The position numbers were made by a program, and so were the translations under genes. From Plicaturopsis crispa FD-325 SS-3 (Eukaryota; Basidiomycota; Agaricomycetes; Amylocorticiales; Amylocorticiaceae), in assembly GCA_000827205.1 (NCBI GenBank), contig KN832555.1, positions 2,344,541 through 2,408,540 of the forward strand: a stretch of 64,000 nt of DNA. The letters run 5' to 3'. The notes under the pieces are model-generated. The model saw only the letters and a list, made by a program, of their open reading frames with translations. It was not told the origin of the DNA and searched no databases. Positions 318 to 43,447 of the stretch are shown in pieces (the stretch's first letter is position 1; the number at the start of each line of letters is the position of its first letter).

Positions 318-3271
318 GCGAAACCCGAATATAGAACTATTCTCGAACAACGACACTTCCAGTTTTAGTTCTAGTGATCTTATTATTCACACGACACCGT
401 ACTCCGGAGAGCTGAGCCTGGAGTTCCCCAAAGCGGATATGCGATGCAAAGGTGGTATCTTAGCGTGCGTAAATGTGCTTTACCCTCATTATTAATCGTC
501 TCAAGTCTGCCGTTCTAGTGATGGTACGTCGAGCGCCATAGAGCTCTGGTTTTGAACTGACAAATTCCTACGTCGCTTCGATTGGTATAGAGAGTACGTC
601 TTGGTCCTTCCGTCGTAAACGCACGTGCTCAATATATACCCGTCCTTGCTAGTGGGCATGGGCAAGACCATCATGCTCTCTGCGCTCATACAGACTAGCC
701 TTGGTCCGGATACGTCGGGTGTCGATGACGAACCACGCGAAAACTCGAAGGGAAAGCAGCTCAAACTGGACAAAGCCTTCCGGGTAACCGACCGCCGCAC
801 CCAGAGTTCGAAAGGGCCCTGTGCTACCTTGATCGTCGCTCCGACGTCACTTCTCAACCAATGGTCAGAGGAGATACAACGTTCAGCCAAACCCGGGACT
901 TTCAAAGTATTAGTATGGCATGGCACGAATCGATTGGACCTGGAGGCTGCTACTGAGGATGACAGTGACAACGATAATACCATCAAAGTCATTGTGACAT
1001 CCTATGGGGTGCTCGCCTCGGAGCACGCGAAGCTGGAGAAATCAGGCAATGACGCGTCTAGAGTTTTCGAAAGTTAGCGTGCACGCCTATTCGAGCAGCG
1101 CCGTGACAAGTTGCTAAACCTTTTCATACAGTCGAGTGGCTTCGCGTTATTTTGGACGAAGCTCACCACTGCAAGTCACGGCAGAGTAAAACTGCTCGTG
1201 CTGTTTATGCCTTGCGTGCGAGGCGACGTTGGGCGGTAACGGGTGAGTGCCCTTACTATACAAACGATTGTTGTTATCCAAACAAGAGAACAGGAACGCC
1301 AATTGTGAACAAGCTTGAGGATCTCTACTCACTACTGTAGGGCTCGTTTGATTTACCTTCGGGGCGATTTTAAAGACCATGGTTTCTCTACAGGAAATTC
1401 CTACGCTTCGAACCTTGGTCGACGTTCTCATTCTTTCGATCGTAAGTGCTCCGCTCATGGAGAACCGAGTTGCATTGACCCACCGTTTCGCTAGGTTTAT
1501 CACTCTTCCCTTCCTTGCACGCGATCCAAAAGCCATCGAGATTGTGCAGGTAAATAATCTAGAATCACGAATGTATCGCGGTCTTAAAGGTAACGTCTGC
1601 AGGTCATTCTTGAAAGTGTTCTCCTGCGGCGCGAAAAAAATATGCGGGACGCCGATGGTAACCGGATTGTCGAGTTACCTGCTAAAGAGGTGTGTTGAAC
1701 CATTCATTTCAGCAATAGTTGGTGCTGATCGCGAGTTTTCAGGTCACCATCGAGAATCTTGAATTCTCCTCCTTGGAGCGCAAGATCTACGATGCGATTT
1801 ATCGCGACGCAAAGCTCAACTTCGAACAGCTGAGCGAGAAAGGCCTCGTCAGCAAGAACTATACTCACATCCTTGCCATGCTTATGCGGTAGGTGATGTC
1901 GGCAGTATTCTTGCTCATTTGCTGATATCCGTTGCAGTCTCCGCCGTGCCGTGCTTCATCCTAGCCTGGTCCTGACTGCCGACGAAACCACCCCCCAATC
2001 GAAAAGCGACGGGAAAATCGATGTCAACGCGATGATCAACGAATTTACGAACGCAGAAGGCGGTAAACCTACACCTACAGTGTTCGCTGAAAATGCTTTG
2101 ACCAATCTGGGCGAGGAAGTGGAGTGCCCCATCTGTCTTGATGTTGCGGAGGCGGCCATGATCATTCCTGGCTGTATGCACCGATGGTATTTATCTGTCT
2201 AATATGATTTTATCTCCCGCTGATTCAAGCGAAACAGCTGCAAAGACTGTATAGTGGCGTACATTGAAAATCGTCGGGAACGCGGAGAAGAATGCCGCTG
2301 CCCGACGTGTGGGAATGGTCCGGTCAAGGTACGTAGGTTTGTGGTGGGACATGATGGATGCTGAATCTGTCTTAGGAGAATGAGTTGATGGAAGTAATGC
2401 GTCCTAAGAAACAAGAGGACGCGTCGAATTCCCAGCCAAAATTCACGTTGAGGCGAAACGATTTCCAGTCGTCGACAAAATTGGAGGCATTGGTTCAAAA
2501 TCTGCGTATGGAGTCATTCCGCTACTAGGACGACAAACACTGACTTTCGATAAACAGGGCGACTGCAGGATCAGGACCCTTGCTTCCGGGCCGTAATATT
2601 TTCTCAGTTTACCAGTTTCCTCGACTTGATCGAGGTCGTGTTGACTCGGGAGAACCTCGCGTGGTACAGATTCGACGGATCTATGGACATGAAGAAGCGC
2701 AATGCGGCTGTGAATGAGTTCCGGGATCCTTCCAGGAAACCCAAGGTGCTCATTATCAGTCTCAAAGCTGGCGGTGTCGGGCTAAACGTTGGTATCTTCG
2801 TTCGTATGCAAGGTAGTCTCCGCTGACTTTTCTATCTCGTAGTTAACAACTGCCAATCATGTCTTCATGGTAAGGCACGCTCCAAGATTGACGAGTTGCT
2901 TATGAAAATGCTGAGGCCGTTTGCGATAGATGGACTGCTGGTGGAATGCTGCCACCGAGAATCAGGGTAAGGTCAATCTCTATTAATGTAATTCCCGAGC
3001 TGAGAGTCTTTCTTTAGCGATCGATCGTGTCCACAGAATAGGGCAAGAGAAGACTGTCTATGTTAAGCACTTTGTGGTATGCCTCTATCGACCAACCGGC
3101 GTGTTTTCTATGTTCACCTTGTCTCAGGTCGATAACACGATTGAGCGGAGGATCCTGCAAATACAGGCTCGGAAGACTGCTATAGTGAAGGAGGCGTTCC
3201 GCGGCAAAGGCGCCAACGGGGAAGATTCGGAAAGCCTGGAGAACTTGAAGATCATGTTCGGAGACGACTAG
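318..3271 (+). CDS. RAD5: RAD5-type SNF2 helicase/RING ubiquitin ligase, 5' part not found
   Basis: RAD5/HLTF family proteins couple a SNF2 ATPase to a RING E3 that polyubiquitinates PCNA in the error-free branch of post-replication repair in the nucleus. In order I see: the family motif [11 protein letters not shown], a Walker A GMGKT, the DEAH-like box [11 protein letters not shown], a C3HC4 RING starting CPICLD (about 2121-2330) and continuing CRCPTCG, then the helicase C half with [16 protein letters not shown] and DRVHRIGQ, ending KIMFGDD and a stop at 3271. About a dozen short introns are needed; for example exons join as [14 protein letters not shown] across a GTAGGG donor near 1337. 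The HIRAN domain and the segment preceding the ATPase are missing, and the first readable residues (about 318-380) do not look like the family. The frame into GMGKT seems to need a 5-base exon at 519-523. It could be a 5'-truncated gene, or one whose start lies left of the window behind a long intron. Confidence 0.85.
519..523 (+). other. Putative 5-base microexon in RAD5
   Basis: TGATG is flanked by CTAG on the left and GTACGT on the right. Spliced between a donor at 465 (GTGCGT) and an acceptor ending at 652, it yields A-D-V-G-M-G-K-T. That restores the family Asp before the Walker A, though one residue shorter than the usual ADEMGMGKT. It is inferred from frame only. Confidence 0.3.
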
Positions 3272-3943: not shown

Positions 3944-6238
3944 ATGCGCACCTTTCTCCTCTTTGCTATCAGCGCCTTTAGCTACGTCTCTGCCAGCGCA
4001 TCGCCCCAGACAGTCCTATCGGTGGATTCTACAGCCTGTTGCATAAGTCCGTGAAAGCACAAACTTTTATTTTCGCCAGAGTGTGACCAGACAAGATCCG
4101 TCCCACGGCGACAGTAGGTAGCAACGGACACCAAAAATAGGCCCGGATGCTCGAGCTCGTTGCCTCTCGCGATGGGGTCGCCCATTTGCTCACTGTGCGC
4201 TCCGCCCCCGACGACAATAAAGCCCTATTTTTGATGCACTGCTAGTTTACCATAACTGGGAAGTACATGGGACTCCTCTTCCAAAGACTTAACATTGAGG
4301 GTACACTCCGTGCTACTAACGGCGACGTTTAAGGTGGCGCGCTCATCGTTTGCGACAGCGAGCTCAGGGTGCTGAGCGGCGGCGACGCGCCCTTCTCGGA
4401 AGGGCTCTAGCAACGGTTGAGCATCGGCATTTCTTGCCGGCGTGACAGGAGTCACAGATCTCCCGAGAATAAAAGTTGACGCTTTCACGGACTTATGCAA
4501 CAGGCTGTAATAATGACCAGGCGAATAACTCGAATTTGATTTTCGCGTCTTTGCACTCCTTACTACGGTCCTGGTCCCAAGCGTTCGCCGACAAGGGCCA
4601 TGCCGTCGTTCCAGCGACCATACCCACTGGCACATTGATGTACCACGTCTGGGGCTCGGGCACACCGCCCGTTGGAATGGAGTGGTTTGCGTGCGTGTCA
4701 ACTTCTCGTATCATCCCCATCTCCCCTCGCTTACGCACAGGATAGCATGGACGCCGAACATAGCTACATGTTTGGAGGTCACGGATCGGGCGTCGCGTGC
4801 GTTTCTGCTATCTCGTCCATTTCCACCCTGCGCTAATTCGTACACCGCAGCACTCAGTGGACCTACATAGCTACACGCCCGCTGCGCGTCCTCTACTTTG
4901 ATGGTTTCTCCGCGCAAAAGGGCGGAAATGGGTACCTTGACGCACAGGACATCCTTGCCTTTGGCGCCCCCGATGGCGCCCCAGACGGGTTCTCTGAGTA
5001 CGAACGTGGCAAGGGTCTGTGCGAATGGGGCGAGGAGTTCGGCATCGAGGGGTTCATACGTGAGGAGGCCACGTTTGAGGTCATATGGTGCGACTTCCAG
5101 AACGGCGTGAGGCTCGTGGACGCGACGAATGTCTCTGGTGAGACCGGACCGCAGGACAGCCCTGGCCCACCTCCACTATGGCAAGAAAGCACCCCGCCGG
5201 CATCTCCCTCTAGTCGTCCTGGACGTGGTCCCGGAGGTCCCGGAGGCCCAGGTGGCCCCGGCGGAGGAGGACGTCGTGGCCCTCCTAGACCCAGTAACGA
5301 ATACCACGATCAAGGAATGTGGTCCATGTACCGCGCCGCTAGCTGGCACAGCACGGTTCCGGAAATCCGCATTAAACCGGAACCCGCTCACCTCGTCTCG
5401 CTCTACTCACCCGCGTACCGCTCTCTCGCCGCGAACACGGCACTCCCGCGCCGCATGCACAACCTCACGGACATCTCGCCGGAGGACATGGCAGCGTGGC
5501 GCGCCGAGCTTTCACAGGCGCTCGGCGATTGGCGCGCGGGCCGGAGCAGCGGGGTGGACTGGAGTGCTATTGCTCAGGCGGTGGTCGACCGCAATGGCGA
5601 CCGTCTCGCAGAAATGCGAGAGGTACTTGCGGCGGAGGGGACCGCGTCGGTCCCGGTGAACGAGACGGCGGTGCTCGCGCGCGCACGGCTGGTGGCGTTT
5701 GCGCTAGTCATGCCGTATGTTGATGCACCCATGGTGCTGACCGCGTCCCGCACGCCCGCCGCGCTCGCCCGTGTCGTGAGCAAGTGCACGCGGGCCTTTA
5801 CAGGTCATCTCGATGGATTAACCCTGACGCCGCAGGAGCAGGGCCTGCGGGACGCAGTCGAGGGTGTTCTAGATAGAATATGTAGCTTCTCCACGGGCAC
5901 GCTGGGGGAGGCGCTTGATTTCCTGAGCAAGGACGACGGTGACGCGACAGTCCTCTTGAGCCGGTGGCGTGCGGATCTGGACGACTTGATGGAGTGGCTC
6001 GGGTGGGCCATGTGGGAGCGCTGTTCCCCTGCATGTGCATGGAATGTAAGGTTTTTCTAGCTTCACTGCGAAAGTATCGCCTGACCCTTGTTCATCTACG
6101 CAGGAGCAATGCTTCGTTCCGATGTGGCCTATTGGCAGGCGCAGGCGCAGGGACACGCCAGGACCTCCTGACACGAGCGACGATGAGCCACTCGTTCCTC
6201 GTTGCATGAGCATGGATCAGTTTTTATTCGAGTTTTGA
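3944..6238 (+). CDS. Secreted Agaricomycete family protein, exon 1 interrupted by a MITE
   Basis: The start ATG at 3944 opens a signal peptide (MRTFLLFAISAFSYVSASA). The body carries features I know from an uncharacterised family common in mushroom-forming fungi: a PTGTLMYHVWG segment, DAEHSYMFGGHGSG, an ATRPLRVLYFDGFSA strand, GLCEWGEEFGIEGF, and FEVIWCDFQNGV. A Gly/Pro linker (GGPGGPGGPGG) and an alpha-helical C-terminal half with PMWPIGRRRRR follow. Exons other than the insertion are 4510-4690, 4746-4796, 4851-6045 and 6104-6238. Without the element the gene encodes 549 residues, and the total coding length divides by three. With the element, translation from 3944 stops a few codons inside it. 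Whether the gene is dead or the element is removed at RNA level cannot be seen here. The family's function is unknown; it is probably extracellular or in the secretory pathway. Confidence 0.8.
4032..4507. mobile_element. 476-bp MITE with TA target duplication (Tc1/mariner/pogo-like)
   Basis: A perfect inverted repeat of 26 bases starts CAGCCTGTTGCATAAGTCC at the left end, with its reverse complement at 4482-4507. The similarity continues imperfectly for about 25 bases more (ACTTTTATT, then GTGAC). TA flanks both sides at 4030-4031 and 4508-4509, the target duplication of Tc1/mariner elements. No transposase-like frame lies inside, so it is a non-autonomous miniature element. It sits inside codon 29/30 of the host gene, and deleting the element plus one TA gives an uninterrupted frame (SVDS|NNDQANNS). 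Superfamily assignment rests on the TA duplication and TIR only. Confidence 0.9.
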
Positions 6239-6563: not shown

Positions 6564-6692
6564 TGATGAGAGTGGGATTCGAACCCACGCCCTTGTCGGA
6601 CCAGATGACTAAGCATGATTACGTGCTTGTCAGGTGCGTTCCATTGGAACTGATCCTTAGTCTGGCGCCTTAGACCGCTCGGCCATCTCACC
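6564..6692 (-). tRNA. tRNA-Leu(AAG) with 48-base intron
   Basis: On the minus strand the sequence opens GGTGAGATGGCCGAGCGGTC, a class II leucine-type start with a D arm. The acceptor strands GGTGAGA and TCTCATC pair with one G-U, and the discriminator base is A. The anticodon stem CCAGA/TCTGG encloses loop CTAAGGA with anticodon AAG at 6656-6658. The T arm GTGGGTTCGAATCCCAC is complete. A 48-base intron (6607-6654) follows position 37, the canonical place, leaving an 81-nt mature tRNA. It decodes CUU leucine. Confidence 0.95.
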
Positions 6693-41489: not shown

Positions 41490-43447
41490 CTACGAGGCAC
41501 CTAAGATATCACCCATCTCCTCCTTGAACTTCTCATAATCGTCTTTCGGCTTGGCCTTCTTCACTTGGCCACTTGTGCTCGGTGCAGGAGGGGCGGGTGT
41601 GGGGACAGCGCCAAATTGATGCTTCAGTGCGCTCACGAGGTCAGGTCTGACAGGACCCGATGACGGCTCCGGAGAGCCTGTCGCATCGGCACCGGTCTCC
41701 AGGGATGGTGCCGCATTGACCTTGGATGAACCAGCACCAGACGCACCCGGTTTCTTCCGCCTCAGATTGCTCGGGACGAACGCAGTCGCCTCCTTCTTGA
41801 AATCGCGCAGTTGCGGTTCGGCAGACACGGTGGCGGCTTCGGTGCTGGCAGAGCTGGAAGCGAGGGCAGGATTTGCGGGGAGTGAAGGGTGCGCTGGTAG
41901 ACGTGGCGCAGACCGGTGTGCTTGGAATGTCTGGTGAGGGATAGATGATAGTGGGTCTTGCATAGCCGAAGTAGACTGGTGGCGAGGAAAGAAACCAGGA
42001 GGTGCCTGTGGCATATGAGGTGCATGGAATCCAGGCGGATGGAAAGGCGGGAATTGCTGAGGGAATCCAGGGGGAGGTGGGGGTAAGGTTCCTGTGGGGA
42101 AGCCTGGAGGAGGTGGCGGCATAATTCCTGTGGGGAAGCCTGGTGGAGGTGGCGGTACATTGCCAGTCGGGAAGCCTGGAGGAGGAGGCGGTATACTGCC
42201 AGTCGGGAAGCCTGTTGGCGTTGGCGAAATACCCCCAGGTGGAAATCCAGGAGGTGGGCTACCTGCAAATCCTTGCGGCCGAGGCGGCAGGCCATTTGGA
42301 GGGAAACCTGGTGGCGGTGGCGGTGGCGGCGGCAGCGACGGAGGGGCACCTGAAGTTGGTGGTGATATGCTTGAGGGAAAGCCAGGGGGTGGAGGCGGAA
42401 GAGCAAATCCTGTGGGTGGAGGTGGAGGAGGGAAAGATGGGAAATGAGCAGGGAAAGATGGGGGAGCTGTATCACAGGAAACGTATCATTACAGTGTGCA
42501 ATTTGAGTATTCTATGTGAGGGGAACGTACTAGGGGATGCGCCTGGAGGTGGACCCTCTGGCATCGGAATATCATCGTCGCTGTCGACTTCCTCCTCGTT
42601 TGGAGCTCGTGAAGGACCCGGAGGAGGCCCTTCTGGCATCACTATATCCTCGTCACCGTCGTCTGCACCAAGAAAATTAATTTAGGCATAACTTATCATG
42701 AGTTGTGACAACACACCACCGTCATCTTCAGCACCACTGTCGACTTCATCGGGGCGCAGCGCTGGCAAAGCTCAGGGTGAGTACAAGTTAATAAATTACT
42801 ACCGATACACTCACGTCTCTCCACATACGGCATTCCAGGCGGCGCGACACCAAACGGATTCATGACGGCGTCGTAGTATATACTCCTCTCTGGGTGTCGT
42901 GGCAGGCCATTCTTGTTGAACAAATTCCGCTTCTGTGGCCCGGCAGGTTTCTCTGCATCCTTATTTTCCTGGTCGCCCTCACGGCGTCGCGCCCTGAACA
43001 CGAGTTTACGCTGTTCCGGGTGCTCCTCGACATATTCTTCTTTCTTCTTGACAATCTTCTCAAGGTCTGCCTTGAGTTCGGTCAAGCGCGCACGCTCTAC
43101 TGGGGAGGGCTCGGCGATCGCTTCGAGTTTCTCTATCTCTTCTTCGAGGTCTGCGTTCGGGGTAGTGGATTAGCGAGAAGCCTGAGGGGTGGCGGATACA
43201 TGACGCACCTCGGGTGTCCTTCTTGACAAGCGCGAAATCACGCGTCTTTGCGCGCTCAGTCTTGTTCTACTAGAGTATACCGTGTGAGCGGAGGTAGGCA
43301 CACAAGACGGTATTGCTCGCCTTCTTCAGCTCTTTCTTCCGCTGAGCCTTGCCTGCATGGGTTTAATCAGTGTCAAGGATGATTGAGACATAGTGGGTAT
43401 GTCTCACGAAAGGAGTCTGCTGGATTTAGGTTCTTGCCCTTTGCCAT
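41490..43447 (-). CDS. WBP11-like splicing factor
   Basis: WBP11/NpwBP is a nuclear proline-rich splicing factor that binds WW domains and activates Prp19-complex steps. The protein starts MAKGKNLNPADSFRKAQRK, continuing KELKKNK, the family's signature N-terminal Wbp11 domain. The coiled coil EEEIEKLEAIAEPSPVERA and LEKIVKKKEEYVEEHPEQR, then LPRHPERSIYYDAVMNPFG and APPGMPY, follow. Acidic PEGPPPG segments (DIVMPEGPPPGPS, DIPMPEGPPPGAS) lead into a long Pro-rich tract with tandem PPPPPGFPTG units. The C-terminus has FVPSNLRRKKPG and DDYEKFKEEMGDILGAS. About six introns lie in the 5' half. The PPLP-like tract is the WW-binding part (family knowledge). Confidence 0.9.
42060..42215 (-). repeat. 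36-base minisatellite coding for PPPPPGFPTG units
   Basis: Within WBP11, about four tandem 36-base units encode the 12-residue motif PPPPPGFPTGxx (GIM, GNV, GSI, GTL linkers). Degenerate continuations lie to about 42440. The linkers vary while the PPPPPGFPTG core is kept, so the array is in frame and probably selected. Confidence 0.8.

Follow-up and report, generated by a model that had tools for sequence, protein, structure and literature searches.

MITEs derived from Tc1/mariner transposons use TA as their target site. According to the available part of one survey, some introners bring both splice sites with them and add codons to the gene (PMC9860276). The locus reported here lies in a window of 64,000 nucleotides, which is the whole stretch of DNA that was analysed, from the genome of the basidiomycete Plicaturopsis crispa (33.2 Mb, 49 contigs), whose size, gene content and short GTRNGT introns fit a filamentous basidiomycete. 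A 476-bp MITE at 4032-4507 (+) interrupts the first exon of a gene from a small fungal family whose products are putatively secreted. With a probability of about 0.72, it is a Tc1/mariner-type MITE that most likely inactivates this one family member. The two nearest relatives of the gene, L002 and L003, are arranged in tandem on contig C9, and the three short introns of the host gene were placed by homology. The features are as follows.

3944-4031 (+): left part of exon 1, with the start codon and the N-terminus MRTFLLFAISAFSYVSASASPQTVLSVDS, which by eye resembles a signal peptide (compare paralogues L002 and L003)
4030-4031 (no strand): left copy of the TA target-site duplication; TA flanks all four of the four copies found
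4032-4507 (+): MITE, 476 bp, from the alignment of copies; at least four full-length copies in the genome
4032-4058 (+): left terminal inverted repeat, 27 bases, perfect
4047-4503 (+): hypothetical intron inside the element, 457 nt, in frame, GTCCGT...CTTAT (branch-like)...CAACAG; donor type unsupported
4481-4507 (-): right terminal inverted repeat, 27 bases, perfect
4508-4509 (no strand): right copy of the TA target-site duplication, from the alignment of copies
4510-4690 (+): right part of exon 1, open, resembling the paralogues (NDQANNSNLIFASLHSLLRSWSQAF...); 73-75% DNA identity with two C9 sites
4691-4745 (+): intron 1, GTGCGT...TAG, 55 nt, by homology with L002 and L003
4746-4796 (+): exon 2
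4797-4850 (+): intron 2, GTGCGT...CAG, 54 nt
4851-6045 (+): exon 3, which encodes the bulk of the conserved protein and includes a Gly/Pro-rich stretch
6046-6103 (+): intron 3, GTAAGG...CAG, 58 nt
6104-6238 (+): exon 4, up to the stop codon

Elsewhere in the window, a piece of a SNF2-family helicase gene is found at 619-1077 (+), upstream of the interrupted gene, and a tandem repeat of 36 and 72 bases occupies 42061-42254. Rfam gives a single match at gathering score for the whole window, a tRNA gene at 6564-6692 (-), which probably contains an intron because of its length of 129 bases.

The limits of the element and the flanking TA duplication (placed here at 4030-4031 and 4508-4509) agree with the preliminary description, in which the terminal inverted repeats (TIRs) were said to be perfect over 26 bases. 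They are indeed perfect, over 27 of 27 bases, and an imperfect extension reaches about 56 bases at 86%. No transposase-like frame was recognised within 4032-4507. The copy number, for which a genome-wide count had been proposed, is at least four: this lower bound corresponds to full-length copies on the four contigs C2, C6, C10 and C13, and all four copies have TA on both sides. The other three copies differ from the one in the window by 5.0, 7.6 and 9.1%, gaps excluded. When 20 bases of the TIR were searched for with up to three mismatches, 10 matches were obtained, of which eight are the ends of the four copies, against two matches for the reversed pattern as control. Thus, the dispersed, TA-flanked copies and the excess of TIR matches over the reversed control argue that the MITE is not a product of chance. 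The two weaker matches, on C3 and C26, were discarded as chance ones, having neither a partner end in the surrounding 3 kb nor an outer TA.

The C6 copy possibly represents a second exon hit by the same MITE family. Eight open frames were chosen around the C6, C10 and C13 copies, and two of the eight have a Pfam match (a histidine phosphatase in the region of the C10 copy and a KH domain in that of the C13 copy, each at a distance of over 1.5 kb from the element); no Pfam match was obtained for the remaining six. A 232-codon frame without Pfam match (L017 2533-3230) lies to the left of the C6 copy and stays open up to the element.

The TA targets and the repeats starting with CAG fit Tc1/mariner, and the link of the MITE to this superfamily is probable from sequence comparison. 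Searched without mismatch, the pattern TACAGNNNGTTGCATAA is present at all eight ends of the element copies and, apart from these, in the genome only at C10:1289730-1289746, a place upstream of a gene whose DDE_3 match falls into two pieces. This candidate DDE_3 partner shares 14 fixed bases with the element, at one end. The NNN free positions of the pattern were chosen after this place had been seen, and when one mismatch is tolerated the pattern has 15 matches versus 9 for the control. The gene itself (L029; G000:C10, about 1288640-1289750, -) is a Tc1/mariner-like transposase gene with a DDE_3 region split in two. One end of this element is recognisable; the right end was searched for and not found. 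Candidate partners of the pogo type (DDE_1) gave four matches. One of these DDE_1 loci, L025, was set aside as a partner: TACAGCCTGT equals the first ten bases of TA plus TIR and then diverges, and no matching inverted arm is listed. At L025, TACAGCCTGT is located at position 1122, near the DDE_1 transposase match.

Turning to the host gene, 88 coding bases (3944-4031) lie to the left of the element, and to the right a frame with a codon start at 4512 continues for 519 residues, across three introns, to the stop codon. No stop or frameshift was found in the gene downstream of the element. The earlier claim that removal of the element restores the frame is thereby borne out. The strongest evidence that the exon was formerly continuous is provided by the paralogues. 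The homologous exon is uninterrupted in both L002 and L003, in which a hydrophobic N-terminus is followed by LPQ(A/V)VLS in one continuous exon; the sequence MRGAGMLLYTF...SLPQAVLSANTTTQTDNSNLIFASLHSLLRSWSQAF and a close variant of it are each contained within one exon. Because these two tandem genes are uninterrupted across the site, the host exon appears to have been continuous before the insertion, and it is foremost on this ground that the proposed splitting of the first exon by the MITE is supported.

As for the family, an 85-residue piece of exon 3 matches five places in the genome, the window's own included. The Gly/Pro-rich stretch of exon 3 (about 5210-5290, +) is absent from both C9 paralogues, and a similar stretch is present in the more distant L004. 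The host protein matches no Pfam family over the cut-off, a search up to E = 1 gave no relative of solved structure, and with a mean pLDDT of 41.6 the AlphaFold2 model of exon 3 is too poor for a fold search. Nothing among the features seen marks the protein as a toxin or an effector. Between the paralogues, dN/dS is 0.16-0.18 (336-349 codons, exon 3 only; dS 0.6-1.7), which reflects long-standing purifying selection, mostly from before the insertion.

The following course of events is proposed. A non-autonomous DNA transposon would have inserted into exon 1 of a single member of the putative secreted-protein family, with a TA as its target, its transposase being supplied from elsewhere, presumably by a Tc1/mariner element. 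Translation from the normal start would then end after 36 residues: the unspliced reading from the start codon enters the element and meets an in-frame TGA there, just past the signal-peptide-like stretch. Because translation would end so early, the allele is most likely a loss-of-function one, too recent or too lucky to have acquired further lesions. A gene-disrupting MITE would be an ordinary example of transposons inactivating members of small families. The absence of further lesions in the gene and the presence of in-frame splice pairs count against inactivation. Transcription might also start inside or after the element and yield an unsecreted, N-terminally shortened protein, for which an open frame begins at 4473, still in the element, and extends across the exon. 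However, no in-frame ATG exists between the element and the methionine of PTGTLM, so that no restart at an ATG would keep the N-terminus, and both the signal peptide and the conserved FASLHSLLRSW would be missing; such a product is hardly to be expected.

The insertion had been described as probably young, and the open host frame agrees with this, but a near-identical recent burst does not fit: the nearest copy is 5.0% off, and 11 substitutions and one 2-base gap are private to the copy in the window. Since some of these changes may predate the jump, they give a maximum age for the insertion here. For an unconstrained gene, the probability of carrying no stop or frameshift is 0.06 at the full age of the private branch, 0.24 at half and 0.49 at a quarter of it, under a crude model that takes in about 1434 bases from three exons and draws on a single gap. 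Thus, the lesion-free gene weakly favours a fairly recent insertion or continued function. It could also be that the insertion is polymorphic, with the MITE carried by the sequenced nucleus and an empty site by other nuclei or strains, in which case the species would be unaffected. A single assembly was analysed, and a rare, recent allele would be expected to have an open frame, as here. On the other side, a search with the right flank for the empty TA site, a comparison that the preliminary description had proposed across strains or haplotypes, detected in this one assembly no second copy and no empty-site allele, the other matches being only the C9 paralogues at 73-75%. Polymorphism is very unlikely as the explanation, and it would be compatible with inactivation of a family member by the MITE.

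Another reading is that the element is removed as an intron. According to the preliminary description, the gene appears disrupted, barring another splice or an excision, and no in-frame pairing was found for the donor GTGAAA in what was acknowledged to be a limited check. The split exon stands. Beyond that one donor, in-frame pairs exist: among all GT-AG pairs whose donor lies at or after 3961 and whose acceptor ends by 4624, 15 are in frame and stop-free. In one of these pairs, 4047-4503, the donor lies in the left TIR and the acceptor in the right TIR, and a CTTAT branch site is present; splicing would keep the frame and leave 21 extra bases in the mRNA, that is, seven extra codons. In a second in-frame pair both sites belong to the host, the donor GTGGAT lying at 4022 and the acceptor ACCAG having its end at 4520; no element sequence would remain in the mRNA. 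By either pair, the element could be a new, introner-like intron, and the gene would stay functional. With 15 such pairs in the list, however, the existence of any one of them is no surprise.

The donors of both pairs are unlike those of the host gene family. In this family, A or G occupies +3 in all eight donors read by eye (three in the window gene, three in L002 and two in L003). A controlled count took in candidates that bridge open frames and have GTNNGT, a YAG acceptor and a branch-site motif. GTCCGT is not enriched among them (3/65 real candidates versus 2/20 in the reversed control); for A or G at +3 the figures are 47/65 versus 11/20. The count is small and includes false candidates, as the 20 of the control against 65 indicate. 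Two unsupervised splice-site models, trained on open frames of the window and other loci, were rejected for scoring, as they gave conflicting ranks to 4047-4503. The first, which included GC donors and a narrower donor range and settled on 28 candidate introns, placed it 17th of 27. The second placed it first of 15, which would speak for an intron, but this model is distrusted: its 86 candidates have implausible acceptors (28/86 AAG) and a low rate of branch sites.

The RNA of the element folds as one long hairpin (z -7.4; none of 100 shuffles is equally stable) that includes both sites of 4047-4503. Pairing of the element ends would bring the splice sites together, but the same hairpin would bury both of them. 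In addition, 457 nt is long against the 54-58 nt of the introns in the host gene. The lesion-free downstream gene and the low dN/dS of the paralogues would suit a gene that stays functional; the latter signal, from exon 3 only and with dS up to 1.7, is mostly older than the insertion. Taken with the precedent of introners that bring both splice sites and add codons, as given in the available part of the survey (PMC9860276), these points make splicing of the element possible with an unsupported donor, and an intron that preserves the gene is unlikely. A more specific form of this idea is rather doubtful: a spliceable Tc1/mariner MITE, whose TIR would give a donor when read one way and a branch site plus acceptor when read the other, so that it could serve as an intron in either orientation. 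Just as doubtful is its corollary, an introner-like intron gain in a basidiomycete soon after insertion, for which the uninterrupted paralogues would be the reference. Splicing of the transcript, if true, is the one result that would raise the interest of the locus.

Compared with known systems, the inactivating MITE that we prefer shares with Tc1/mariner MITEs the short length, the lack of a recognised transposase, TIRs that start with CAG, the TA duplication and the dispersed copies. It differs in that just four copies were found, as a lower bound, and in that its autonomous partner would be recognised by 14 shared fixed bases at one end, with no recognisable right end. Fungal Introner-Like Elements, in the part of the report available, are likewise repeated sequences newly placed in fungal genes; they are gained spliceosomal introns of Dothideomycetes and relatives, whereas the present case is a basidiomycete TIR element with a candidate intron only (PMC4457414). 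The DNA-transposon introners, as described in the available part of the survey, resemble it in being TIR elements in an exon with an internal in-frame GT-AG pair that adds codons if spliced (PMC9860276). They differ in that the element described here has only a candidate intron with a weak donor, that no gene was recognised at the insertion points of its other three copies, and that introner families there have five or more copies, versus the four, a lower bound, found here. If it is spliced, the element would be a case of intron gain from a DNA transposon that can be dated and that lies outside Pezizomycotina and the aquatic groups covered in that part of the survey (PMC9860276).
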